Assembly: GCA_005798775.1 (NCBI GenBank)
Contig: SYIM01000115.1
Span: 1 to 42,452, forward strand
DNA length: 42,452 nucleotides
Direction of reading: 5' to 3'
DNA from: Burkholderiales bacterium
Lineage (GTDB): Bacteria; Pseudomonadota; Gammaproteobacteria; Burkholderiales; Burkholderiaceae_E
Position 1 is the stretch's first letter, and every line of letters begins with the position of its first letter. Under the pieces are notes generated by a model, which saw only the letters and a list, made by a program, of their open reading frames with translations, had not been told where the DNA came from and did no database searches. The position numbers and the translations under genes are program-made. This document shows, piece after piece, positions 2,565 to 42,452 of the stretch.

Positions 2565-3557
2565 ATGACCAGTCACGTACGACGCCTGCAACTGAAAGCC
2601 ATCGCGGCAATCGCCGGCCTGACGAATGCTGCGGGTGCAGCGGCACAGAGTGCCGGTAGCGGGTATCCCAGCCGCGAGATCCGGTTCATCGTGCCGTTTC
2701 CGCCAGGCGGTGGCAACGATATTCTCGCCAGGATGCTGGGGCCTAAAATGGCTGAAGCGTTTGGCAAGCCGGTAGTGATCGATAACCGCCCGGGCGCTGG
2801 GGGTAACCTGGGCACTGATCAGGCGGCTCGCTCGCCGGCCGACGGCTACACGATCGTCAGTGCATCGAACCAGGTCACGATCAACCCGGGCCTTGGACAG
2901 AAGTTGCCGTTTGATATCGAGCGGAATTTTTCGCCCGTCGCGCTCGTTGCATCTGTCCCCATGCTGCTGGTGGTTCATCCCTCGGTGCCAGTTAATAATG
3001 TGGCCGAACTGATCGCCCTTGTGCGCAGTCAGCCTGGCCGACTTAATCACGCCACCCCCGGTAACGGTACGCCTCAGCATTTGGCCTACGAACTCCTCAA
3101 CAAGCTTGCGAAGATCGAGGTCACACATATTCCCTACAAGGGGACGGGGCCTGCGGTTGCCGATCTGCTGGGTGGACAGGTACAGACCGCGTTTGCCACC
3201 CTGGCTTCGGTGGCTCAGCATGTCCGTGCGGGCAAGCTGCGCGCGATTGCGGTGGCCCCAGCGCAGCGTTCGCCGTTGATGCCCGAAGTGCCTACGGTGG
3301 CGGAGTCGGGTGTTCCCGGCTACGACGTGCCGCTCTGGTACTCAATTCTGGCGCCAGCGGGAACGCCTGCCGAAGCGATCGACCGGCTGGCGGGCGAGCT
3401 ACGCCGGATTGTCGAGTCACCCGACACGCGCGACCGGATGGTGAACCAGGGCTTTCAGCCTGGCTTCGTAGGCCCAGCCGCTTTGCAAGCGATGATTCGT
3501 GACGACGTAAGGCGCTGGCAGGGAATCGGGCGCGACACCGGCATCCGGATCGAATAG
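2565..3557 (+). CDS. Bug/TctC-family tripartite tricarboxylate transporter substrate-binding protein
   Basis: MTSHVRRLQLKAIAAIAGL...YPSREIRFIVPFPPGGGNDILARMLGPKMAEAFGKPVVIDNRPGAGGNLGT; Sec signal peptide and Bug family motifs. Confidence 0.95.
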   Translation: MTSHVRRLQLKAIAAIAGLTNAAGAAAQSAGSGYPSREIRFIVPFPPGGGNDILARMLGPKMAEAFGKPVVIDNRPGAGGNLGTDQAARSPADGYTIVSASNQVTINPGLGQKLPFDIERNFSPVALVASVPMLLVVHPSVPVNNVAELIALVRSQPGRLNHATPGNGTPQHLAYELLNKLAKIEVTHIPYKGTGPAVADLLGGQVQTAFATLASVAQHVRAGKLRAIAVAPAQRSPLMPEVPTVAESGVPGYDVPLWYSILAPAGTPAEAIDRLAGELRRIVESPDTRDRMVNQGFQPGFVGPAALQAMIRDDVRRWQGIGRDTGIRIE

Positions 3558-3564
3558 GCGGATC

Positions 3565-4803
3565 ATGTCGTTGGGTCAGGCGCTCGCTGGCATCCGGGTT
3601 CTCGATTTTTCGCAGATCGGAGCCGGGCCCACCGTTGGCATGCTGATGGGTGACATGGGGGCAGACGTCACCAAGATCGAGGCCCCCAGCGGCGACCTGG
3701 GTCGGTTGATCGGTCCCCCTTGGCTGAACGGCGACTCGGTCGTCGCGCTCAGTTTCAACCGTAACAAAAAGGGGCTCTGCCTCGATCTCAAGAAGCCGGA
3801 GGCGGTCGCAACGGTTCATCGGCTGGTCGCCTCGGCCGATGTGCTGATCGAGAGCTTTCGGCCTGGCGTGATGAGCCGTCTCGGCGTGGGCTGGCCGGTG
3901 TTGTCTGCAATCAATTCGAAGCTCATATGGTGCGCAGTGACCGCCTATGGACAGGACGGCCCCTGGGCCGACCGTCCTGGTGTGGATGGAGTGGTTCAGG
4001 CGCTATCTGGCCTCATGAGCCAGATCGGTGTGGACGGAGGCGAGCCGTGCAAGGTGCAGGTACCAGCCGTGGACATGACCACTGGGTTTCTTGGTACCGT
4101 TGCCGTGCTGGGCGCACTTCAGGCAAGAGAACGCTCGGGATGCGGTCAGTACCTGGACATCAGCATGTATGCCGCAGGCCTGATGCTGCAACAGACGGGT
4201 ATTGCGTCGTATCTCGCGAGCGGTAAGTTGCCCCGTCGAATCGGCAGCGCTGCGCCTTATGCAGCGCCGAATGAAGCTTACCGGACAGCGGATGGCTGGA
4301 TTATGCTAGCGGCGTACCAGCCGCCGCGCTGGCGGTCGTTATGCGGGATACTCGGGCTCGGCGAGAGAATCGAATGTGACCTGCGGTTTGCCGATAACGA
4401 CGCGCGGGTCCGCCATCGCGCAGCGCTTCGCACGCTCATCGAGGAAAAGCTCATTTCGCGAACGACAGCGCAATGGATTCCCCTTCTCGAGGCAGGCGAC
4501 ATCATGTGTGCGCCTGTTGCAGATTACGCCTGGGTAACCGAGTCCGAACAGTTCCAGCACATGGGGGCTGCGGTATCAATGCAACTTTCATCGGGTGCAA
4601 CGTTTCAATCGCCTGGTTTCCTGCTCGGAGATCGGAATACGCAGTCTCGCGTACGTCATGCCCCGCCCTCTGTCGGCGAACATTCGCGCGAGGTGCTGCA
4701 TGGCTTTGGTCTGAGGCCCGAGGAAATTGAGCAACTGATCGCGCAAGGCGCGGTCATCGACAATCCGGCGCGGGAGCGCGCCTCTGCAGGAGAAGGCTCA
4801 TGA
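3565..4803 (+). CDS. CaiB/BaiF family III CoA-transferase
   Basis: LAGIRVLDFSQIGAGPTVGMLMGDMGADVTKIEAP...GVDGVVQALSGLMSQIG; family III CoA-transferase hallmarks. Confidence 0.95.
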   Translation: MSLGQALAGIRVLDFSQIGAGPTVGMLMGDMGADVTKIEAPSGDLGRLIGPPWLNGDSVVALSFNRNKKGLCLDLKKPEAVATVHRLVASADVLIESFRPGVMSRLGVGWPVLSAINSKLIWCAVTAYGQDGPWADRPGVDGVVQALSGLMSQIGVDGGEPCKVQVPAVDMTTGFLGTVAVLGALQARERSGCGQYLDISMYAAGLMLQQTGIASYLASGKLPRRIGSAAPYAAPNEAYRTADGWIMLAAYQPPRWRSLCGILGLGERIECDLRFADNDARVRHRAALRTLIEEKLISRTTAQWIPLLEAGDIMCAPVADYAWVTESEQFQHMGAAVSMQLSSGATFQSPGFLLGDRNTQSRVRHAPPSVGEHSREVLHGFGLRPEEIEQLIAQGAVIDNPARERASAGEGS

Positions 4804-5786
4804 AGTTCAGTGCAATCCGCACGTTCAGGGATGACATGGGTCATCGCTTCAGCCGTGTTGTGGAGTTGGGGATCGATGACCTGTCTCCGGGCGAGGTGGT
4901 GATCCGTAGCCAGTTTGCAGCGGTCAATTACAAGGACGCCCGGGCGGTCACGGGCGCAGGCAACGTGCTCAAGCGTTTCCCCTGTACGCCTGGGATCGAG
5001 GTCTCCGGCGTGGTGGAATCCTCACGCGACGCCCGCTTCCGCGCCGGCGATCTGGTAACAGTTCAAGGCGGGCGCGAGTTCGGTATCAGTCGCGACGGCG
5101 CCTACAGCGAAGTGGTGCGCGCGCCGGCCGCCGAGGTGTTCCCGGTGATTGATGGCTTTGACCCGTTTTCGGTCGTGGCGCTTGGCATTGCAGCGTACAC
5201 GTCGGCGGTTGCGGTGGAGGCCATCGAGAAGCACGGCACACGCCCTGAAGACGGCGAGATCATCGTGACAGGCGCCACCGGAGGGTGTTCCAGCTACGCC
5301 ATCAGCATGCTGGCAGGCCTTGGCTACCAGGTGGTGGGCATGACCGGTAAAACCTCAGAGCATGAATACCTGAAAGGCATCGGGTGTGTGCGCGCGGTGG
5401 GGCGCGACATTCAAACGCAGTACACCCGACCACTCGATGAACAGTTATGGGCAGGGTCGATTGACGCTGTGGGCGGCGCACCCCTTGATTTCGTACTCCG
5501 TACGATGAAGCAGCGTGGGATCGTGGCGGCCTTTGGCAACGCCGCCGGCGAACAGTTCACCACATCCATCTATCCGTTCATTCTGCGAAGCGTGACGCTC
5601 GCCGGGGTAAACGCCAACCATCCGGTCGCCTCGCGTGGTAGTGCCTGGCGTCGCATGACCGGCGATTTACGGCCTCAGGCACTGGATAAGATTGTTCACC
5701 GCATTGCGTTTGCTGAACTGCCCGCGCACTGCGATGCCTTGATCAACGGCGGGGTTCGCGGCCGCGCGGTAGTGTGCTTCAACTGA
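4800..5786 (+). CDS. YhdH/AcuI-like acrylyl-CoA reductase / MDR-family quinone oxidoreductase
   Basis: MKFSAIRTFRDDMGHRFSRVVELGIDDLSPGEVVIRSQFAAVNYKDARAVTG...GIEVSGVVESS; ATG overlaps the preceding stop (ATGA). Confidence 0.9.
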   Translation: MKFSAIRTFRDDMGHRFSRVVELGIDDLSPGEVVIRSQFAAVNYKDARAVTGAGNVLKRFPCTPGIEVSGVVESSRDARFRAGDLVTVQGGREFGISRDGAYSEVVRAPAAEVFPVIDGFDPFSVVALGIAAYTSAVAVEAIEKHGTRPEDGEIIVTGATGGCSSYAISMLAGLGYQVVGMTGKTSEHEYLKGIGCVRAVGRDIQTQYTRPLDEQLWAGSIDAVGGAPLDFVLRTMKQRGIVAAFGNAAGEQFTTSIYPFILRSVTLAGVNANHPVASRGSAWRRMTGDLRPQALDKIVHRIAFAELPAHCDALINGGVRGRAVVCFN

Positions 5787-7848
5787 TCCTGGCTGTGGCA
5801 CTCGCGGCACGGCGTTCTGCGCGCAGGCGAAGTCGCTGCGCGCCAAGCGTGAGCAGGAAAAGCGAAAAGCCCAACGCGTGGCTGGCGGGTGCAGGATAGA
5901 CCAGCGCAACGCCCGCCACGAATAGCGTTGTACGCTCCCAATATCGGCACTTCAGCCATAACCAGCCCTGAAATCCGCCCGCCAGTGCCGCAATGCCTGC
6001 CGCTGCGGTGATGGTCACCCTCGCTACCTCAAACCAGTCTGCCTCGGCGAGCGTTCGCATCGATCCGGTAAGAAGCAGCATCGACCCCGATGGATCGAGC
6101 ACGAAAATAAAGGGCACCAGGAACGCGGGGAGCGTGTATTTCCAGCACTGCAGGGTGGTGCGATAGGGGTCGCCTCCAGTGATGGAGGCGGCGGCAAACG
6201 GCGAGAGTGCGGTGGGTGGCGATACTTCGGAGAGCACCGCGTAGTAGAAGATGAACATGTGTGCGGCGAAGTCGGGCACCTTGAGCGCCATCAGTGCCGG
6301 CGCGGCAATCACGGCGCAGATGATGTAAGACGCAGTAACAGGGACCGCCAATCCCACGATCCAGACGATCAGCGCGGTGTAGACGGCTGTCAGCAGCAGA
6401 GAGTTGCCGGCATATTGAAGAACGATCGAGCTGAACTTGAGGCCCAATCCGGTGAGCGTGACCACGCCCACGATGATGCCCGCGCCGGCGCAGGTTGCGG
6501 CCACATTGAGCACCGACCGCGCACCGTCTTCAAGCGCACGAAGCAGGCCCGACTCCCAAAGTCCACGTCCGATCGGCACCTTACCCGTGAAAATTCCGTG
6601 GGGGATCAGCGAGCACTCCGCGCGCAACAGGCTGGTGAATAGAGACGCTACCGTTGCCCAGAACACTGACAGCTCGGGAGAAAACCCGAGCAGCATGAAG
6701 CCAACGATGGACACCAGCGAAAGGAAATGAAACCAGTAGCGCCGAGAAAGTGACCAGGCGGACTCCGCCTTCTCGAACACCGTGTCCTTCATGCCGAATT
6801 TCCTGACGTCGATCTCGACCATCAGGAAAAGCGTGAGGTAGTACAGGCAGGTCGGGATGGCTGCCATCAGCAGCACGTCGAGATAGGAGATTTTGAGAAA
6901 TTCTGCGATCAGGAAAGCTGCAGCACCGAGCACTGGCGGTGAGATGATCGCCCCCAGCCCGCCCGCAGACAGCAGTCCCCCTGCAGCATCTTTCGAGTAG
7001 CCCACGCGCGTGAGCATAGGGGCAGCGACCGCCCCCAGAGTGACGGTGGTGGCGACGCCTGAGCCCGACGGGCCGCCCAGCAGAAACGAGGCGAGCGTGA
7101 CGGTACGGCCCGCGCCGATAGGCTTGCCCCCCATGGCAGCGAAAGAGAAATCGAGATAAAAGCGCCCGGCTCCAGAATGCTGCAGAAAGGCGCCATAGAT
7201 GGTAAACAAGATGATTAGCGAAGATGACACGCTGAGTGCCGTGCCAAATACGCCCTCCAGCGTCATGTACATGTGTCCCACAAGTCGGGGCAGTTCATAG
7301 CCCTTGTGGGTCCAGGGGGAGGGCAGCCACGGCCCGAGGAAGGCATAAGCAACAAAGCACAGTGTGATGAACGGCATGATCCAGCCCGTGCTTCGGCGCA
7401 TGGCTTCAAGGATCAGGGCCATCATCAGCACCCCAAACACGATGTCCCAATCATCGGGGACGATCGAGCGATCGAAAAAGTCGTCGCCGCCAGCGATCAG
7501 CCAGGCCGCTACCGCAATGCCGCCGGCGGCGAGCAACCAGTCCCACCACATCACCCGATTCCGAAATCGCCGGGCAACCGGGAACACCAGGAAAGTGAGA
7601 AACAGAATGAACGCCAGATGGGTGGCCCGAAGATGCTCGGGCCTGACAATCGCGTAGGCGGTATAGAGGTGAAACAGGGACATGATCACCGCGACCAGCG
7701 TGACAAAGCGCGCCAGCATGCCGGTGAGGCGGTTGGTCGCGCCCTCCTCGAGCTCGATCATCTCTCTGGCCCGAGCCATGGCCTCGGCGCTGACGCGCTC
7801 CAGCGGCGCAGCGTCTCCTTGAGCCGGGTCTACGGACGGGGAGGACAT
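5779..7848 (-). CDS. TRAP transporter fused permease (4TM/12TM, TAXI-type)
   Basis: 689 aa multi-TM; SLIILFTIYGAFLQHSGAGRFYLDFSFAAMGGKPIGAGRTVTLASFLLGGPSGSGVATTVTLGAVAAPML is typical of fused TRAP permeases; adjacent to a TAXI SBP. Confidence 0.93.
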   Translation of the reverse strand: MSSPSVDPAQGDAAPLERVSAEAMARAREMIELEEGATNRLTGMLARFVTLVAVIMSLFHLYTAYAIVRPEHLRATHLAFILFLTFLVFPVARRFRNRVMWWDWLLAAGGIAVAAWLIAGGDDFFDRSIVPDDWDIVFGVLMMALILEAMRRSTGWIMPFITLCFVAYAFLGPWLPSPWTHKGYELPRLVGHMYMTLEGVFGTALSVSSSLIILFTIYGAFLQHSGAGRFYLDFSFAAMGGKPIGAGRTVTLASFLLGGPSGSGVATTVTLGAVAAPMLTRVGYSKDAAGGLLSAGGLGAIISPPVLGAAAFLIAEFLKISYLDVLLMAAIPTCLYYLTLFLMVEIDVRKFGMKDTVFEKAESAWSLSRRYWFHFLSLVSIVGFMLLGFSPELSVFWATVASLFTSLLRAECSLIPHGIFTGKVPIGRGLWESGLLRALEDGARSVLNVAATCAGAGIIVGVVTLTGLGLKFSSIVLQYAGNSLLLTAVYTALIVWIVGLAVPVTASYIICAVIAAPALMALKVPDFAAHMFIFYYAVLSEVSPPTALSPFAAASITGGDPYRTTLQCWKYTLPAFLVPFIFVLDPSGSMLLLTGSMRTLAEADWFEVARVTITAAAGIAALAGGFQGWLWLKCRYWERTTLFVAGVALVYPAPASHALGFSLFLLTLGAQRLRLRAERRAASATARIS

Positions 7849-7909
7849 GATGTCTGCGGGTCGGTGTCAATGACCCGGCGCTACCCGGACGGATAACGCC
7901 GGTGCGAGC

Positions 7910-8872
7910 CTACTGCGAAATTTTGATGCCCTTGGTGGCGAGGAACTTTACCGCGCCCGGGTGCCAGGGTACGGGGGACGCCTCGCCTCGCTGATTTTCA
8001 AGAACGATATTCTCGGCTTCCTTGTGGGCGCGGATCAGGTCTTCGCGCTTTTCGAAAACGGTTTGAACAATTCGAAATGCAGTCTGCTCATCAAGGTCTC
8101 GGTGAGCGACAAGCAGGTTCATGACGCTTGCCTGCCTGTTATCGGCTTCCATGCCTTTGTAGATCGTTTTTGCGATGTGGTCCCTTAAGTAGAGATTGCC
8201 GTATTTCTGATTCATTTTATCGACGAGGTCGGCGTGGTCGATCATCTTTATCTTGGTGCCAGGCGTGTTGGCGAGATCGGAGACGGCGCCGGTGGGCAGT
8301 CCACCTACCCAGAAAAACGCTTCGATCTTGCGGTCCTTCAGGGCTGCTACGGATTCCGCTACGCCAAGGCGTTCCCTCTTGAGATCGCGGTCCTTGTCCA
8401 GGCCTGCCGCCTCGATCAGGCGAAACGCCATGACCTCGGTCGCGCTGCCGCCTGAACCGGTCGAGACGCGCCGACCCTTGAGGTCGGACATTTTAGTGAT
8501 GCCCGTGCCCTCTACCGTGACCACGTGCATGCGATTCGGGTAAAGGACAAGAAGCGTCCGGACCGGCACCGGCTTGCCCTTGAACTTGTCGTCACCTTTC
8601 AGCGCATCGAGGGTGGCGTCGGCCATGGTGAACCCGATGTAGGGCTTGCCGGTACCGATCAACTGCAGATTGGCCACTGATCCACCAGTGACTTCCGCCG
8701 TGGCCTGCATGCCAGATACATACTTGGATAGCGCCGCGGCAAGGCCTCCGCCGAGCGGGTAATACACCCCACCGGTGCCACCGGTACCAATTGACAGATT
8801 CTGGGCGCTGGTGAGTGAGGCGAGTCCAAGGGCGAGCGCGGCAATACCGAGCTTGGCAATTCTTGCGATCAT
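7910..8872 (-). CDS. TAXI-family TRAP transporter solute-binding protein
   Basis: MIARIAKLGIAALALGLASLTSAQNLSIGTGGTGGVYYPLGGGLAAALSKYVSGMQATAEVTGGSVANLQLI; canonical TAXI N-terminus. Start placed at the second Met. Confidence 0.94.
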   Translation of the reverse strand: MIARIAKLGIAALALGLASLTSAQNLSIGTGGTGGVYYPLGGGLAAALSKYVSGMQATAEVTGGSVANLQLIGTGKPYIGFTMADATLDALKGDDKFKGKPVPVRTLLVLYPNRMHVVTVEGTGITKMSDLKGRRVSTGSGGSATEVMAFRLIEAAGLDKDRDLKRERLGVAESVAALKDRKIEAFFWVGGLPTGAVSDLANTPGTKIKMIDHADLVDKMNQKYGNLYLRDHIAKTIYKGMEADNRQASVMNLLVAHRDLDEQTAFRIVQTVFEKREDLIRAHKEAENIVLENQRGEASPVPWHPGAVKFLATKGIKISQ

Positions 8873-32769: not shown

Positions 32770-33513
32770 CTAGGCGTGAACCGCCTCGCCCAAATAGGCT
32801 GCCCGGATAGCGGGCTGAGCTATGAGGGTTTGCGGGTCGCCCTCGGTAACGATTCGACCGCCCTCGAGCACATAGGCACGGCTAGCCGCCTCAAGCGCAC
32901 GGACCGCGTTCTGCTCGATCAGCAAAATCGATACGCCCGACCGATGAATTTCGTGGATCGCCTGGAAAACCTGCTCCACTACCGAGGGCGCAAGCCCGAG
33001 CGAGGGCTCGTCGATCAGAAGTAGCCTGGGGTGTGCCATCAGGGCACGACCGAACGCCACCATCTGCTGCTGGCCGCCCGACCGGGTGCCGGCCAGCTGC
33101 CAGCGGCGTTCCTTGAGAATGGGGAATAGCCCAAACACACGCTCCATCGTTTCGGCGCGTCGCGAGCGGGCGAGCGACCGATAAGCGCCGATATCCAGAT
33201 TCTCCTCGACAGTCATTTGCCCGAACAGCAAGCGCCCCTCAGGAACAATTGACACATCGCGGTTGCACATCTGGGTCGCCGTCATCCGTGTGACGTCTTC
33301 GCCGCGCAGCACGATGCGCCCGGAGCGAACGGGAAGCAAACGCATGATCGTATTGATAAGCGTGGTCTTGCCAGCGCCATTGGGGCCCACCACCGACACA
33401 AGCTCGCCTTCGTCGACGTGCAGCGTCATATCCCACAGGGCAGGTGCGTCGCCGTAAGAAACATTGACGCTTTCAACGCTCAGAAGTCTGGGGGAGTTAG
33501 CGGCCGGCTTCAT
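32770..33513 (-). CDS. livF: Branched-chain amino acid-type ABC transporter ATPase LivF
   Basis: LLSVESVNVSYGDAPALWDMTLHVDEGELVSVVGPNGAGKTTLINTIMRLLPVRSGRI...ILLIEQNAVRALEAASRAYVLEGGRIVTEG. Confidence 0.94.
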   Translation of the reverse strand: MKPAANSPRLLSVESVNVSYGDAPALWDMTLHVDEGELVSVVGPNGAGKTTLINTIMRLLPVRSGRIVLRGEDVTRMTATQMCNRDVSIVPEGRLLFGQMTVEENLDIGAYRSLARSRRAETMERVFGLFPILKERRWQLAGTRSGGQQQMVAFGRALMAHPRLLLIDEPSLGLAPSVVEQVFQAIHEIHRSGVSILLIEQNAVRALEAASRAYVLEGGRIVTEGDPQTLIAQPAIRAAYLGEAVHA

Positions 33514-35239
33514 GGGGGGTTCCAAGATAAGCACTGATGACCTCGGGATCAGCGATGACTTTCCGGGGGTCACCGCTCGCGATGATCTGGCCATAATTGA
33601 GCACGATCAGGCGCTCGCAAAGCTCGAGTACCGCGCGCATGTTGTGTTCAATAAACACCACGGTCGAGCCGCGGTTTCGAATCTCCCGCACCAGGGTGAT
33701 CGCGCTGTTGATTTCCGACGGCGTAAGACCGGCGAGAACCTCGTCGAGCAGAACAAGCTGCGGCGCCGATGCAAGCGCTCGCGCGAGCTCAAGGAATTTC
33801 CGCTGATGAAGATTGAGCTCGGTAGGGAGCGCCCGGGCGCGCTCGGCCAGGCCGACGAACTCAAGCCAGTGCATGGCCTGGCGCTCAGCCTGGGTCCGCG
33901 AAAGTTGCCGACCACCAAACATGCCGGCAAGAGTGGCGTTCTCGAGCACTGTCAGCGTAACAAACGGACGCGGGATCTGATAGGTGCGGGCAATGCCTGA
34001 GTGCGCTGCCTGATAGGCGGGCTGCAGTACGAGATCGGTACCGCTAAAGACCACGCTGCCATGCTCGGGTTTATAGAGGCCGCTTATCACGTTGACCATC
34101 GTTGACTTGCCGGAACCATTGGGCCCGACCAGGCCGAGGATTTCACCCCGTCTGACATCGAGGCTCACATCGTTCAGCGCCCGTACGCCGGTGAACTGTT
34201 TGGTGACATGGTTGACAGAAAGAATCAGGTCGCCGTCCTGACCCTGACGGGTGATGGGCGGCGGCGACAGCGGTTCCGGGAGGGGCTTGGGCGCTGACTG
34301 GCGCATGCGCCACCAACGAAGTAGCTGTCCCATAATACCCTGTGGCATGAACAGGATGACGATGATCAGGATGAGCCCGATGGTGGCACGCCCTGCCACG
34401 GCGAAGTCACCAGCGGTAAAGGAATAAAGGAGCGCTGTGATCACTGTGGCGCCCACCGCAGGTCCAAACCAGTGGCGCGAACCACCCAGCACGCTCATCA
34501 GCACGACGTTGAGCGGAACGACGATATTGAATACCTCTCCCACCGTCACATAGGACACGAACACGGAGTGAATCCCACCGGCCACGCCAGCGAAGGCACA
34601 TGAAATGCCAAAGGCGATCAGCTTGTAGCGATAGGTGGGGACCCCCTGAACCTCGGCCACGTCCTCATCATCGTGTATCGCAAAAAGCGCTGAGCCTAGC
34701 CGATCACAATAAATCCAGTAGGCAACCCAGAGCATGACCGCGGCCAGCGCGAGAATGATCAGGTAGAAGCTGCCGGAGGGTGTGGGACCGATTGCTGGAA
34801 TCGGGACTGCCGACAGATAAACGCCCGGACCACCATCGATCGGGGTATTGAGAATGATCGTGCCGATCACAAAAGTGATAGCAAGCGTTAGCAGTCCGAA
34901 AAGCTCGCCGCGCAAACTTCGGAGCCGAAACACAATGGCGCCCAGGGCCACGCCGAAAACAGCCGCCACCAGACCCGCGACTGGCAGCGTGGCGAGGAAG
35001 GGCCAGTCGAGCTTACCGGCCAGAACTGCAGTGGTGTAGATGCCAACGCCAAAGAACGCGCCGTGACCGAACGAGAAATAGCCGGAGTAGCCAGACAGAA
35101 TGTTCCAGGACGTAGCGAGCACGATCCAGTGCAGCACCAGATACAGGAAGGTTTCGTAAAACGCGGGCAGTTTCAAAAGCGGGACTGCCGCAAGCAGCGG
35201 CAGAATCACCCAAAAACCCGCAATAACGCGTCGGTCCAT
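33497..35239 (-). CDS. Fused Liv-type ABC permease-ATPase (LivM-LivG)
   Basis: N-terminal LivM permease (LATSWNILSGYSGYFSFGHGAFFGVGIYTTAVL) followed by a LivG ATPase (VGPNGSGKSTMVNVISGLYKPEHGSVVF...VVFIEHNMRAVLELCERLIVLNYGQIIASG) in one ORF. Confidence 0.94.
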   Translation of the reverse strand: MDRRVIAGFWVILPLLAAVPLLKLPAFYETFLYLVLHWIVLATSWNILSGYSGYFSFGHGAFFGVGIYTTAVLAGKLDWPFLATLPVAGLVAAVFGVALGAIVFRLRSLRGELFGLLTLAITFVIGTIILNTPIDGGPGVYLSAVPIPAIGPTPSGSFYLIILALAAVMLWVAYWIYCDRLGSALFAIHDDEDVAEVQGVPTYRYKLIAFGISCAFAGVAGGIHSVFVSYVTVGEVFNIVVPLNVVLMSVLGGSRHWFGPAVGATVITALLYSFTAGDFAVAGRATIGLILIIVILFMPQGIMGQLLRWWRMRQSAPKPLPEPLSPPPITRQGQDGDLILSVNHVTKQFTGVRALNDVSLDVRRGEILGLVGPNGSGKSTMVNVISGLYKPEHGSVVFSGTDLVLQPAYQAAHSGIARTYQIPRPFVTLTVLENATLAGMFGGRQLSRTQAERQAMHWLEFVGLAERARALPTELNLHQRKFLELARALASAPQLVLLDEVLAGLTPSEINSAITLVREIRNRGSTVVFIEHNMRAVLELCERLIVLNYGQIIASGDPRKVIADPEVISAYLGTPHEAGR

Positions 35240-35240
35240 G

Positions 35241-36098
35241 TCAGGCCTTGCCCGGGCGAAGCAGTAATACCGCAATCAGTAGCGAGAACGAGACCAATGG
35301 CGCCCACGCTGGGGCGGTGACAGCCATGGTGGCTGCTTCTGACAGACCGATTACGATTCCGGCCACCAGTGGACCCAGCGGGTTACCCAGGCCGCCTATC
35401 ATCACTGCGGAAAACACTACGCCTACCCAGGCGTAGATCTGCGAGGGGGCTAGCGTGAAACTCAGTGCGAGGCAAGCCCCTGCCACGCCAGCAAAGGCAG
35501 AAGCCGCGCCCGATAACACCAGCGCCAGCATCGGCTCATTGATGCCGAAGGCAGCAGCCATGCGCGGGTTTTCGGACATGGCCCGCATGGCTTTCCCAAG
35601 TGCGGTGTAACGCAGGAGCCCCCAGGTTGCGAGAGACAGCGCAACCGCGATCAGCAGCGTCATGAGTTCAGGTAGCGGGAAAAACAGCTGGCCGACCTGA
35701 AACTTGATATCGCTGTATGCAGACTCGAGCTTGCGATAGTCGGCCGACCAGATCCACTGGATCACACTTTCGATGATGACGGTGAGACCGAAGGTCACCA
35801 GGAGCGAATTGAACGGCGTGACCTTGAACCGTGCAAACACCCAGTGCATCGCCATCCCGATCAAGAAGAAGCCGGGCACGATGATGATCATGGTGAGAAA
35901 CGGATCCAGCTTGAAATCCTCGGACAGCTGATAGGTGAGGTAAGCGCCCAGAAAGGCGAGGGCAAAGTGCGCCAGATTGATCTGGCGCAGCATTCCCCAG
36001 GACAGGCTCAAACCAAGTCCGAGCAGGCCGTAGAGGCCCCCTATGAACAGCCCGGACAGCAGGGACTGTCCGAGCAGTTCGAGGCTGGGCATGTGCAT
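35241..36098 (-). CDS. livH: Branched-chain amino acid-type ABC permease LivH
   Basis: LLSGLFIGGLYGLLGLGLSLSWGMLRQINLAHFALAFLGAYLTYQL...NSLLVTFGLTVIIESVIQWIWSADYRK. Confidence 0.95.
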   Translation of the reverse strand: MHMPSLELLGQSLLSGLFIGGLYGLLGLGLSLSWGMLRQINLAHFALAFLGAYLTYQLSEDFKLDPFLTMIIIVPGFFLIGMAMHWVFARFKVTPFNSLLVTFGLTVIIESVIQWIWSADYRKLESAYSDIKFQVGQLFFPLPELMTLLIAVALSLATWGLLRYTALGKAMRAMSENPRMAAAFGINEPMLALVLSGAASAFAGVAGACLALSFTLAPSQIYAWVGVVFSAVMIGGLGNPLGPLVAGIVIGLSEAATMAVTAPAWAPLVSFSLLIAVLLLRPGKA

Positions 36099-36101
36099 CG
36101 C

Positions 36102-37319
36102 TCAGGGTGTCCTGAGCGTGGTGCCTGGCTTGGCAAAGGGTCTGGGCCAGACAACCACCCACTCTCCGTTCTGAACCTGCTTGAGCTTGGTGAGATCGTC
36201 TCCGTAATTGTTGACCCCATCAAAACGCATGGCGCCCTGAATGGTATTGACCGTGTTCTTCTTGAGCCATGCGGAAAGGGTCTTGTCATCCAGTGACTTG
36301 GTGGCGTTGACAGCGGTCTCAAACACCTGCCATGCGGAGTAGGACGCCGCTGCCTGCGTGTCGACCGATGTGTCCGGGAGCGATGCCTTGGCGGCCCGCT
36401 CGTTGAAGACCTTCGAAAATTCGACTGCCCCGGTGTTCTTCATCATGGGCTCGTGTTGCTCGAAGATGGTCATTGCAAGCCCAAGGTTGCCGTCGGGCGA
36501 CTTGATCATCGGACCCGGGGACGGCAGAAAATGGAACATGGTGGGCGGCGAGTAATCGATCTTCTTCATGGCGTCGAGCAAAAGCATGCCTTCCAGTGCG
36601 ATGACACCGCCCCAGATAAAGTCTGGGCGTGCGGCTTTCAGCCGGCTGGCAATTGCGCCGAAGTCGCGGTTACCGAACTCCCACTCCAGCCACAACACCT
36701 CCTGAAGCCCCCGTTTCTTCGCGACGTCGCGCGCGCCGACCGACATGAAATGCACTGACGGAAACTTGGAGGTGACGATCGCAATCGTCTTCGGAGCCTT
36801 GGGGCCAGCGGCTAGCGCATCAAGCACCATGGTCGGGCCCGAACTTTCCGGCGTTGGGCCGGTTGCCCAGGTTGGGAAGTGCATGTCGTACTTGGCAAGG
36901 CTGGGGATGCCAAAGGTGTGATGAACCAGAATTTTTCCGTATCGCTGGGCAACCCCCATGGCCGACAAAATGTTGGCTGTCGCATAGGGGCCAATCAGCA
37001 AATCAACCTTGTCGACCGTCACGAGTTGCTCGTAAAGCGTGCGGGCGAGATCGGGCTTCGACTGATCATCTTTCAGCACCCATTCGACCGGGCGCCCCAG
37101 AAGTCCGCCGCGCTTGTTGAGCTGCTCGACATAAATTTCGCCGGTGAGTTTGTGAATCATGGCGGTTGCCGATAATGGGCCGGTGAGGGCGAGCGTGCCC
37201 CCCACGCGCACTGGCGCGCCAGACTGGGCCAGCGCGCTGTCCGCGAACGGCATGGATAACAACGGTGCGCCAGCGGCGGCGAGAAGTGGTTTTAGCGCTT
37301 CTCTACGGTTCGTTTTCAT
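36102..37319 (-). CDS. Liv-type ABC transporter substrate-binding protein
   Basis: MKTNRREALKPLLAAAGAPLLSMPFADSALAQSGAPVRVGGTLALTGPLSATAMIHKLTGEIYVEQLNKRGGLLGRPVEWVLKDDQSKPDLART; Tat-like N-terminus and Peripla_BP_6-type fold. Confidence 0.94.
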   Translation of the reverse strand: MKTNRREALKPLLAAAGAPLLSMPFADSALAQSGAPVRVGGTLALTGPLSATAMIHKLTGEIYVEQLNKRGGLLGRPVEWVLKDDQSKPDLARTLYEQLVTVDKVDLLIGPYATANILSAMGVAQRYGKILVHHTFGIPSLAKYDMHFPTWATGPTPESSGPTMVLDALAAGPKAPKTIAIVTSKFPSVHFMSVGARDVAKKRGLQEVLWLEWEFGNRDFGAIASRLKAARPDFIWGGVIALEGMLLLDAMKKIDYSPPTMFHFLPSPGPMIKSPDGNLGLAMTIFEQHEPMMKNTGAVEFSKVFNERAAKASLPDTSVDTQAAASYSAWQVFETAVNATKSLDDKTLSAWLKKNTVNTIQGAMRFDGVNNYGDDLTKLKQVQNGEWVVVWPRPFAKPGTTLRTP

Positions 37320-37380
37320 GGCTCCTCCTGTGGTGATTAAACGGGTCTGGCAGTACGCCGCTTGCGCAGCGAACGGTTGT

Positions 37381-38748
37381 TCAGTGTGCAGCAGTCTGCA
37401 GCCTGGCCTCAAGCTCACGCATGATGCGCTGCCCCGAGACCGCCAGCTGGTGCTGGCGATCGGCTAGCGCACTGAATGCCATCCGCCCATCTCGCTTGAG
37501 GAAATCGCCTGCGATCATGACCGAATCGATGTTGGCGAGGCTCGCCTGGGTGACCAGCGTGGCGACCGGGTCGTGCATGGGCTGCATATTGAGATCAGTC
37601 GCCCGGACCATGATGAGATCGGCCTGCTTTCCGGGGGTGAGCGATCCGATCTGGTTTTGCATCTTGAGCATGCGGGCGCCTTCGACCGTGATCCAGCTCA
37701 GCGCTTCGCGCGCCGTAATCGTACCGGTGTCGGGCAGCTTTCCATCGCGAGACTTCGCACGCGCATTATCAAAAGCCTTCTGTGATGCGAGAGCCATGCG
37801 TGCAACGGTGAACATATCGCCGCTGATGCAGGACTCAAGATCGACCCCGAGCGAGGGCTGGACGCCCAGATCGCGCAGCCGCCCCGTGATCGCAAACCCA
37901 TGGCCCTGAAACATTTCAGTTTCCGGCGTAAGCGAGAAGCTAACCCCACAGTCCAGCATGAACTTGAGTTGCGCGTCGCTCAGGTCATTACCGTGAACGA
38001 TATTGTTGTTGTCCCCCAGAAGGCCCGCCTGCCCCAGGCGGTCCCAGCCGTCGGGCACGCGCGCGGCAGCGCCCGCGCAATGCATGCTGGCGATGAGACC
38101 CAGCTCGCGCGCGAGCTGAAAATCGTCTACCGCGACGTCGTAGGTGGAGTAGTGTGGTCCGAGAATTGCAAGACCGAGTGTCATCAGCTGATCGCGCGAG
38201 CTGAAGCGCGTTTTTAGCAGCCGCTCCACTTCGCTTCGGGGGTGTGGCACTTCCCAGAATGGTTTCTGGCCAGGCTTGGGGTCAGGTTTGGGCGAGCCGT
38301 GGAAAAACACAGCGCGGATCTGCGACTCGGCCAAGCCGTCAATCGCTGCATCGGTATGGGCAGGCGTGGGATTGTTGTGGCACCAGTCCGCGAGGGTGGT
38401 GGTGCCGCAGTTGATCTGGTTTAAGGCGCCAACCAGGTTGGCGATGCGGATGTCCTCGGGAGAAAACAACGTGGCAAGACCCGCGTGCATCTTCTTGAAA
38501 TATTCGAGGATGGTCCAGTTGGCTGCCACGCCTCGGAGCCCGGTCTGCCAAGTGTGCATGTGCGCGTTGACGAGTCCTGGCGCCACGATCATGCCGGTTG
38601 CGTTGACCAGCTGGGCCCCGGGCGCCGACAAGCTGCGCCCGACTGCCACGATCCGGTTGCCTTCAACCAGAACGTCTCCGTGTGAGAGATCTCCAAGCGT
38701 GGCATCCATCGTGACCACCACGCCACCTTGAATCAGGGTCTTCTTCAT
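37381..38748 (-). CDS. Amidohydrolase family protein (ATZ/TRZ / cytosine deaminase-like)
   Basis: MKKTLIQGGVVVTMDATLGDLSHGDVLVEGNRIVAVGR...GMIVAPGLVNAHMHTWQTGLRG...GSLTPGKQADLIMVRATDLNMQPMHDPVATLV. Confidence 0.92.
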   Translation of the reverse strand: MKKTLIQGGVVVTMDATLGDLSHGDVLVEGNRIVAVGRSLSAPGAQLVNATGMIVAPGLVNAHMHTWQTGLRGVAANWTILEYFKKMHAGLATLFSPEDIRIANLVGALNQINCGTTTLADWCHNNPTPAHTDAAIDGLAESQIRAVFFHGSPKPDPKPGQKPFWEVPHPRSEVERLLKTRFSSRDQLMTLGLAILGPHYSTYDVAVDDFQLARELGLIASMHCAGAAARVPDGWDRLGQAGLLGDNNNIVHGNDLSDAQLKFMLDCGVSFSLTPETEMFQGHGFAITGRLRDLGVQPSLGVDLESCISGDMFTVARMALASQKAFDNARAKSRDGKLPDTGTITAREALSWITVEGARMLKMQNQIGSLTPGKQADLIMVRATDLNMQPMHDPVATLVTQASLANIDSVMIAGDFLKRDGRMAFSALADRQHQLAVSGQRIMRELEARLQTAAH

Positions 38749-38883: not shown

Positions 38884-40062
38884 TCAGCCATCGATGAGGC
38901 CGCGCTCGCACAGCCAGTCGGTCGTGAGCGATACCGCTTCTCGCATCAGATCGGGCTGTCCTACGAAATAGTGCGTGGCCCCATGAATAGCCTGCATAGT
39001 TTTGTCCGCGCTCGCGACCGCGCGGTAGATCTGCCCGGTATGCGTTTGCGGCACGGCATCATCAGCCGAGTGCTCGATGGCTAAAAAGGGCACGTGGATA
39101 CCCTGAGCACTTCGCACTCCGTCCGCGTTGCTGTCATCGATCGACCACTGCGATAGCCACGAGCGCAGCGTCGAGAATCGCGCAAGTCCCACCGGCCCGT
39201 TGTTGGCCACCTCTGGCACCCCCATGAAACAGGTTCCTATCGGCCGGTCATTCGGTTCGAGGCTACCGTCGAGAAAGCGCGGATCGGCCATGGTTCGATG
39301 CGTGACGAACCCCCGCTCCAGCTCCCGGCCGCCGCTGCGCTTGAGATGATGCAGTGTGTCCCGCACCCAGGCGGTGCGGCGACGAGCGCGCGCGCGTTGC
39401 GCTGTGCGGAACTTTACGAGCCATTCACCAGGGTAGGGAGGATTTCTGTCCGGGTGATAAAGGTCAAGCTCGGGGTCTCGATGATCAGGATCGTTTTCGT
39501 CGAGCACGCTGGGGTCGATCCACTCGGAGAAGGTATGGGCGCGAGACATGTGTGCAGCCTGAAACATGACCGCATCAGCAGGAATCAGTCCGGCAGTCAT
39601 GATCGAGCAGGGATCACCCGCGGGCGTGTGCGAAATGGTGGGGCGCTCTGCCTGCGACTGATAGAAAAGCGCGAGGGATCCGCCGCCCGACCAGCCAGCC
39701 AGCACCACTTTTTCGTACCGCCAGACCTCGCGTGCATGGCGGATGTAGGCACCCAGATCGACAATCACGTTTTCCATGATCAGTGCGCTGTCGTTGCGGG
39801 CGTAGCGGCTGCCCGCGCACAGCACATGCTGGCCGCTTTCAGCCATGGCGCGCGGCATTGGGAGTAACTGCAGCGTGCTGGCCGGGTGCATGTAGATGAT
39901 CAGGGTTCGCGAAGGGACACCCTCAGGAACGTAGCGAATTCCCTCAAGGTGTACGGTTCCCACCGAGCCCGAAAATCCGTAAACCGATTTGAAGCTAGAT
40001 TGCTCGGCAAACTGGACGTGGACCCATTCCGAGTGGACGCGATGCGCGGCTGCTGCATTCAA
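38884..40062 (-). CDS. Alpha/beta hydrolase
   Basis: TLIIYMHPASTLQLLPMP...YEKVVLAGWSGGGSLALFYQ (nucleophile elbow GWSGGG)...PFLAIEHSADDAVPQTH...GATHYFVGQP. Confidence 0.88.
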   Translation of the reverse strand: MNAAAAHRVHSEWVHVQFAEQSSFKSVYGFSGSVGTVHLEGIRYVPEGVPSRTLIIYMHPASTLQLLPMPRAMAESGQHVLCAGSRYARNDSALIMENVIVDLGAYIRHAREVWRYEKVVLAGWSGGGSLALFYQSQAERPTISHTPAGDPCSIMTAGLIPADAVMFQAAHMSRAHTFSEWIDPSVLDENDPDHRDPELDLYHPDRNPPYPGEWLVKFRTAQRARARRRTAWVRDTLHHLKRSGGRELERGFVTHRTMADPRFLDGSLEPNDRPIGTCFMGVPEVANNGPVGLARFSTLRSWLSQWSIDDSNADGVRSAQGIHVPFLAIEHSADDAVPQTHTGQIYRAVASADKTMQAIHGATHYFVGQPDLMREAVSLTTDWLCERGLIDG

Positions 40063-40102: not shown

Positions 40103-40627
40103 CTAATGCGACGCCAATCGTTGCTGCTTTTCCTGGGTCCAGCTGTCGCACAGATTACGTGCCCCGGCGCGATAGCCGTTCAACATGCTTTCAGACGCAA
40201 TTTCAGCAGTAAGCTCGAGCCGGATACCGTTTGGATCAAAAAAGTAGATGGAATGCACATAGCCGTCGTGGTCTACCGGGCCCAGCACAGAAATCCCCGC
40301 ACTGATCAGGCGCTTGCGGGCGGCCTCGAGGGCCACAAGCGAATCGACCCGAAGCGCAAGGTGATTGACCCAGGAAGGCGTATTGGGTGATGGCGCTGCT
40401 GTTTGACCATCCCCCAGGTCGAAGAATGCGATGCAGCTGCCGTCGTGCAACTGAAAAAACAGGTGCAGATGTGGGTTTTCGTCGCCGGTACTGGGAACCC
40501 GCTCATTTCGAATCGCGTGGACCAGAGGCAAACCGAGCAGATCTTCGTAGAAGCGTCGGGTTTCTTCGGCATCCCGGCAACGCCACGCAAAATGATGCAG
40601 CTGACGGATCGGTACGAATTCAGACAT
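40103..40627 (-). CDS. VOC-family (glyoxalase/dioxygenase-fold) protein
   Basis: VPIRQLHHFAWRCRDAEETRRFYEDLLGLPLVHAIR...VNHLALRVDSLVALEAARKRLISAGISVLGPVDHDGYVHSIYFFDPNGIRLELTAE. Confidence 0.92.
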   Translation of the reverse strand: MSEFVPIRQLHHFAWRCRDAEETRRFYEDLLGLPLVHAIRNERVPSTGDENPHLHLFFQLHDGSCIAFFDLGDGQTAAPSPNTPSWVNHLALRVDSLVALEAARKRLISAGISVLGPVDHDGYVHSIYFFDPNGIRLELTAEIASESMLNGYRAGARNLCDSWTQEKQQRLASH

Positions 40628-40651
40628 GGCGGCCTCCTGAGATTAGTCCTG

Positions 40652-40975
40652 TCACCGCGACAGATCGAGTTGAAGGGTGGACAGGCCGGTCCTCGCGGCA
40701 GGTGCGGCATACGACCCTTCCAGCACACGTCGTCCCTCTGTGAGCGCGTAGGCGCGTGCAGTAAAAGACAGTGCGATCTTGAGCTTCTGCTCCGCGAGCA
40801 GTGTCGTCAAGCGCTTTTGCTTCAGCGCATCAAGCGCAGAGCCGATTATCCGGATCACTCCTGCGATTCGGCGGCCGAAACCGAGTATGACGACCCGATC
40901 GGCGAGCGACATGAGAAATGGCACGTCAAATTCAATCAGATAACGGCGACGATCCGTGAGGTGATCGCGCGAATG
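40652..40975 (-). pseudogene. Chimeric remnant of Liv-type ABC ATPase genes (3' livG fragment joined to 3' livF fragment)
   Basis: Reverse-strand frame reads YLIEFDVPFLMSLADRVVILGFGRRIAGV (LivG C-terminal region) followed in frame by SALDALKQKRLTTLLAEQKLKIALSFTARAYALTEGRRVLEGS (LivF C-terminal region). No Walker A or signature motif. Confidence 0.8.
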
Positions 40976-41030
40976 ACCTCGCCTGGCCGCGCGCGCTGTT
41001 CTTGACGACCACGCGCACGCTGCCGAAAAC

Positions 41031-41591
41031 TCAGCTCTTGGGGCTAAGCTGGCGGATCCAGTTGCGCAACGCAAGCATCTGTTCAGCGATGATCTTGCGA
41101 GTGGCCTCATCCGTCAACTCTCCCTGCTCGTTGAACCGGGTGTGACATGCGCCAATGAACACCTCAGGCTTTGTTAGAACATTTGCCTCCAGGCCGCCAA
41201 TGATCTTGCGAAGGTCATACTGGCTGCGGGCTCCGCCGAGTGGGCCCATGGTGGCTGACAGGATGGCCGTTGGCTTGCCCTTAAAAGGCTGTGGGCTCAG
41301 ACGCGAAAGCCAGTCGATTGCGTTTTTCAGCACACCGCTCACGGAAAAATTGTATTCGGGGCTCGCAATGAGCAGGCCGTCGGCCTGAGCGATTTCGGTG
41401 CCCAGCGCCTGCACGCTCGCCGGAAATCCCTTGGCCTGCAGGTCGCCGTTGTAGAGCGGCACGGCTGAATAATCAACGACGTGGATGGAGAGGCCGTCGG
41501 GGGCGAGCGCCGCCGCCGCCTGAAGCGCAGCGTTGTTATAGCTTTTCGCTCTGAAGCTTCCGGACAGCGCGACTACTTTCAGTGAGCTCAT
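41031..41591 (-). CDS. NADPH-dependent FMN reductase family protein
   Basis: SLKVVALSGSFRAKSYNNAALQAAAALAPDGLSIHVVDYSAVPLYNGDL...GLLIASPEYNFSVSGVLKNAIDWLSR; flavodoxin-like fold motifs. Confidence 0.93.
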   Translation of the reverse strand: MSSLKVVALSGSFRAKSYNNAALQAAAALAPDGLSIHVVDYSAVPLYNGDLQAKGFPASVQALGTEIAQADGLLIASPEYNFSVSGVLKNAIDWLSRLSPQPFKGKPTAILSATMGPLGGARSQYDLRKIIGGLEANVLTKPEVFIGACHTRFNEQGELTDEATRKIIAEQMLALRNWIRQLSPKS

Positions 41592-41794: not shown

Positions 41795-42452
41795 ATGAAC
41801 CGCAGACACCTGATCCAGACGCTACCGCTGCTCGCGCTGCCCGGCATACTCTCCGCCCAGCCTGCGTGGCCAGACCGGCCGATTCGGCTCGTAGTGCCTT
41901 ACCCGCCGGGTGCATCAACCGATGCATTGGGGCGTATGGTCGCGAAAAAGGTCTCGGCCGCGATCGGTCAGCCGGTTGTGGTGGAGAATCGCGCCGAGGC
42001 AAGCGGCATTATTGGCACTGAGCATGTGGCGCGCGCTGCCCCCGATGGCTACACCTTCTTGCTCGGCACCGACTCCATGCATGCCTCAAGCATGCACATG
42101 ACCGTAACGCCAAGTTATCACCCGATTCGCGACTTCACTCCGCTCACCCTTGCGGCGGCCAACCCGATCGTGCTGGTCACCCATCCTGGGGTTCCGGCGC
42201 GTACGCTGCCTGAGCTGGTTGAATGGCTGCGCCGAAATCCGGACAAGGGTGGCTTCGGAAGCTCGGGCGCAGGTTCGCCGCATCATTTGTCGGGTGAATT
42301 GCTTCGTGAACGCTCGGGCGCCTCCTTTGTTCACGTTCCCTACAAGGGTGGCGCGCCAGCCATTACAGACCTCATCGGGGGACAGATCTCCATGGTGTTT
42401 GCCAGCGCAATCACCATTTTTCCGCATGTTCAGTCTGGCCGCCTGCGCGCAA
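41795..42452 (+). CDS. Bug/TctC-family substrate-binding protein (truncated by the window end)
   Basis: MNRRHLIQTLPLLALPGILSAQPAWPDRPIRLVVPYPPGASTDALGRMVAKKVSAAIGQPVVVENRAEASGIIGTEHVARAAPDGYTFLLG...FVHVPYKGGAPAITDLIGGQISMVFA, frame still open at 42452. Not in the ORF track. Confidence 0.94.
   Translation, partial: MNRRHLIQTLPLLALPGILSAQPAWPDRPIRLVVPYPPGASTDALGRMVAKKVSAAIGQPVVVENRAEASGIIGTEHVARAAPDGYTFLLGTDSMHASSMHMTVTPSYHPIRDFTPLTLAAANPIVLVTHPGVPARTLPELVEWLRRNPDKGGFGSSGAGSPHHLSGELLRERSGASFVHVPYKGGAPAITDLIGGQISMVFASAITIFPHVQSGRLRA

Follow-up and report, generated by a model that had tools for sequence, protein, structure and literature searches.

LivG and LivF are the ATPases of branched-chain amino acid transporters (PRK11300 and PRK11614). 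Stepwise erosion of bacterial operons leaves pseudogene scars, recognized by deletion, frameshift, loss of the reading frame, and remnants that differ between sister lineages. Here, we describe an interval in a 42,452-nt contig of a Burkholderiales bacterium (SYIM01000115.1; the whole stretch is referred to as the window) in which pieces matching the C-terminal parts of both ATPases lie in operon order between an NADPH-dependent FMN reductase gene and a VOC (glyoxalase/dioxygenase superfamily) gene. Unlike LivG and LivF, the interval lacks the catalytic motifs, its livG piece is frameshifted, and its livF piece is truncated; it would not encode a functional member of the family. Its best sequence matches are intact cassettes of the same gene order at the same site, carried by another genome of the genus (G001, contig C63, locus L123) and two Rhodoferax MAGs (L044 and L046). 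The intact cassette is ∼4.25 kb longer, whereas the window retains the 3' parts of livG and livF only. We consider it highly probable (roughly 95%) that the interval is the pseudogene scar of a substrate-binding protein (SBP)-livH-livM-livG-livF operon that the FMN reductase and VOC genes once flanked. The scar has the same traits as known cases of operon erosion and does not differ from them categorically: this is ordinary gene loss, clearly documented, with the outgroup still intact and erosion caught in parallel at three stages, and it gives no pointer to a new kind of system. In the literature on livF pseudogene operon cases, we found nothing specific to this locus.

Fragments of livG and livF in the interval

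The minus-strand frame from 40652 to 40975 is open, with the translation quoted in an earlier note on this DNA, which had read it as a livG' piece followed by a livF' piece. Both the order (a fragment of the 3' part of livG, then the 3' end of livF) and the homology held up. When the proposed similarity check was run by BLAST against the intact proteins of G001, the ghost matched residues 165 to 238 of LivF (53% identity, E = 8e-20) and, through LIEFDVPFLMSLADRVVILGFGRRIA, residues 209 to 234 of LivG (69%, E = 2e-9). NCBIfam models placed residues 40 to 91 of the ghost open reading frame (ORF) among LivF/UrtE-like proteins (E = 2e-4 to 7e-4; LivF PRK11614, E = 6.7e-4) and residues 12 to 38 with LivG PRK11300 (E = 0.01). 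At the DNA level, alignment to the G001 cassette scored 130 for livF and 100 for livG, whereas none of 20 shuffles exceeded 40. Within the window's own genome, the best matches to the ORF after itself were LivG/LivF-type, ATPase-sized open frames. A single non-ABC family spanning the ORF was rejected as a candidate: the Pfam scan of the ORF matched no other family, and a PDB search yielded matches at chance level only.

Beyond the quoted frame, DNA homology extends on both sides (Table 1). The livG homology reaches about 40988, one frameshift further, with the 1-nt lesion near 40942; the livF homology reaches about 40643, past the stop of the frame, with small indels near 40720 to 40685. The remnants, 130 bp of livG abutting 216 bp of livF, meet at an internal junction from which about 0.58 kb is absent, covering the rest of livG and livF through codon 170. 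All retained regions are C-terminal to the ATPase motifs, and no Walker A, signature (LSGGQ-like), or Walker B motif was found in any translated frame of the interval. The absence of the livG end, livF start, Walker A, and signature was thus correctly noted before, and Walker B can be added to the list. Debris of livH or livM, suspected near 41000, did not appear, since DNA alignment detected no livH, livM, or SBP sequence above shuffles there in the window or in two sister genomes (G003 and G004). Searches of the interval for Rfam structured RNAs and for terminators found none, and the sole promoter-like match (41117 to 41089) is a weak consensus match within the FMN reductase gene. The ribosome-binding site of the VOC gene, CAGGAGG, is retained directly after the ghost.

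Table 1. Features of the window and of the intact cassette on G001:C63
Feature	Coordinates	Strand	Remarks
Window
livF 3'-part remnant	40643..40858 (about)	-	codon about 171 to stop; 5' side truncated; DNA alignment to G001 livF
livG 3'-part remnant	40859..40988 (about)	-	codons about 192-235 of 261; DNA alignment to G001 livG 7047-7177
Fortuitous 152-aa ORF through ghost	40652..41110	-	start inside FMN reductase gene, other frame; frame not kept in G003 or G004
Unassigned 42 bp, FMN reductase stop to livG piece	40989..41030	-	no significant match to G001 cassette beyond livG
NADPH-dependent FMN reductase, upstream flank	41031..41591	-	PF03358, E 2.7e-40; ortholog flanks intact cassette in L123
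VOC gene, downstream flank	40103..40627	-	PF00903, E 6e-17
Alpha/beta hydrolase	38884..40062	-	PF12146; liv-VOC-hydrolase order conserved in L044, L046, L056
Intact Liv2 system (SBP, livH, fused livM-livG, livF)	32770..37418	-	
Liv2 SBP	36102-37418	-	
Liv2 livH	35241-36098	-	
Liv2 fused livM-livG	33497-35275	-	single 592-aa ORF
Liv2 livF	32770-33594	-	
G001:C63
FMN reductase	2768-3328		
SBP	3422-4588		
livH	4645-5529		
livM	5526-6476		
livG	6473-7258		
livF	7251-7976		
VOC gene	7984-8508		

Descent from livG and livF is therefore evident from the matches (E = 2e-9 and 8e-20), and the motifs of a functional ATPase are missing. Because the interval is truncated and frameshifted, has lost all ATPase motifs, and lies in a frame that is not conserved, we classify the remnant, judging by its sequence, as a pseudogene. 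The inactivating lesions are the frameshift, the truncation, and the lost start, and orthologous cassettes are intact at the same site (L123, L044, and L046). The 152-aa ORF is no native gene, as it begins inside the FMN reductase gene, out of frame with it, and the frameshift means that its upstream part is not native LivG protein, contrary to a reading of the whole N-terminal portion as LivG. Since this frameshift precedes the livG piece, the in-frame join of livG' to livF' carries no information on a functional fusion. One could take the 152 open codons of the window as a small LivG'-LivF' fusion that is retained and translated in a regulatory role, but this is very improbable: the frame lacks a native start and ATPase motifs, and it is broken or absent in both G003 and G004.

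Codon-position analysis, a gauge of relaxed selection, was not the basis of the pseudogene classification. Changes between the window and G001 at positions 1, 2, and 3 were 0.22, 0.18, and 0.48 in the ghost versus 0.12, 0.07, and 0.56 in the neighboring genes (Fisher p = 7e-4); relative to a functional, fast-evolving livG pair, however, the ghost pattern was not significantly different (p = 0.27). The frame of the livF piece in the window remains open, and its changes still favor the third position; hence either the decay is recent or some of the difference is attributable to the G001 branch.

The intact cassette in relatives

The synteny comparison suggested in the earlier note uncovered the predicted cassette. 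In G001, the FMN reductase and VOC orthologs immediately flank a complete SBP-livH-livM-livG-livF set, and the gap between them is 4,655 bp compared with 403 bp in the window; the VOC ortholog, 87% identical, directly follows livF. The full order from FMN reductase through SBP, livHMGF, and VOC to the hydrolase recurs in the two Rhodoferax MAGs, and the order from SBP to hydrolase recurs in Diaphorobacter aerolatus (L045) and in a Roseiarcaceae alphaproteobacterium (L056). Given this distribution across Rhodoferax, Diaphorobacter, and an alphaproteobacterium, the cassette is the older state at the FMN reductase-VOC site. These findings bear out the earlier proposal that a second Liv cassette collapsed by deletion. 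They also bear out ancestry from separate livG and livF genes, which is the arrangement of the intact cassette in relatives, unlike the fused LivM-LivG encoded elsewhere in the window.

In the sequence of events that we infer, the FMN reductase and VOC genes of the genus ancestor would have enclosed a complete Liv-type ABC transporter operon. SBP, livH, livM, and most of livG would then have been deleted in the window lineage, and the further deletion of ∼0.58 kb would have removed the livG end and the first 170 livF codons, for a net loss of about 4.25 kb. Function would have been lost before or during these deletions. What remains is probably inactive as protein and would serve at most as a spacer keeping the VOC gene and its ribosome-binding site in the transcription unit.

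Several other features of these loci were observed. The D. aerolatus locus (L045:4464-7747) has frame changes in livG, livF, and the hydrolase gene, reflecting early decay or sequencing errors. Both Rhodoferax loci (L044:5297-5989 and L046:5335-5973) contain an extra VOC gene that separates livF from the conserved one. The presence of a LigXa-like Rieske oxygenase downstream in L046 suggests that this locus is an aromatic catabolic cluster. In the window, a divergent gene beyond the FMN reductase (41795-42451, plus strand) encodes, by sequence, a TctC/Bug-type periplasmic receptor; it occupies the same place in G004, and its ortholog adjoins the FMN reductase gene in G001.

Remnants in sister species

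The same-genus genomes compared are fragmented assemblies, and two of them hold other short remnants at this site. In G003, the interval is 479 bp and comprises damaged livG codons from about 38 to 178 and the last livF codons. In G004, 582 bp retain livG codons 222 to 261 with the stop, a 5' part of livF whose Walker A is damaged, and a 3' part of livF with an in-frame TAA. The neighboring enzymes have stayed 85 to 97% identical. Because the parts retained in the window, G003, and G004 differ and are not nested, at least the later deletions must have occurred separately, and the aligned remnants point to erosion in at least three lineages. A tree of the FMN reductase, VOC, and hydrolase sequences gave ((window, G003)95, G004)98 with G001 outside, so that the three eroded lineages group to the exclusion of the intact one. 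Three sister species are at different stages of losing one transporter cassette, with an intact outgroup, providing a clean example of operon erosion that could aid studies of how catabolic clusters shed redundant uptake systems. The livF 3' piece starts at an identical point (GTGATCC; window position 40858) in the window and in G004:C234 (L124), and the sequence preceding it differs. This shared left edge may represent one older deletion or coincidence.

The window derives from an assembly of 350 contigs that is 78.5% complete. In the same genome bin, contig C196 (G000:C196:3061-8045; L137) carries a related cassette of FMN reductase, SBP, livH, livM, livG, and livF, the contig ending inside livF. 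Both circumstances would accommodate an assembly artifact, in which the short interval was created in the MAG and the full cassette persists in the organism itself. However, an artifact would not account for the livG frameshift, nor for sister genomes carrying short remnants of differing content at this position. The C196 proteins are also only 77, 87, 86, 83, 73, and 67% identical (in the order given) to those of the G001 cassette. With identities of 67 to 87% and its own FMN reductase, the C196 cassette is not the missing piece of the site, and an artifact is hardly likely. We interpret the C196 cassette as a paralog, or else a relative gained by horizontal transfer. A DHDPS-family gene upstream of it has a 96% match in G001, which fits the genus; the contig may be misbinned. 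Because this second cassette is nearly complete and belongs to the same bin, uptake by a transporter of this kind may have been retained in the cell despite the scar.

The neighboring Liv2 system and possible redundancy

An intact Liv system, here called Liv2, does lie downstream on the same strand, as had been pointed out, at a distance of about 3 kb instead of the ∼4 kb given previously. This proximity of a same-superfamily system would be compatible with the ghost being a decayed partial duplicate of Liv2 inserted at the site, an origin that we rejected. The ghost is far closer to the G001 genes of its own site (50% to livF1, E = 9e-18; 68% to livG1, E = 9e-8) than to G001 LivF2 (31%, E = 1.5e-4), the Liv2 LivF ortholog that is 88% identical to the protein in the window. 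Against the window's own LivF, identity was likewise 31% (E = 0.048). Relatives, moreover, carry the cassette intact at this very position, and this synteny refutes a Liv2 source. Both lines of evidence leave the duplicate with almost no chance of being correct.

For the scar of a resident operon, the preferred reading, Liv2 or the C196 cassette may have made the lost system redundant, which would plausibly explain why the loss was tolerated. We tentatively entertain a replacement of transporters, at somewhat less than even odds: Liv1, the cluster's original uptake system, might have become dispensable once an amidohydrolase and Liv2 joined the catabolic cluster, and at least three lineages might then each have lost it on their own, with one lineage keeping both. 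No Liv2 system was found in the 2 to 5 kb of sequence downstream in distant Liv1-bearing relatives. Within the genus, the LivM-LivG fusion of Liv2 is conserved in G001, G003, and G004.
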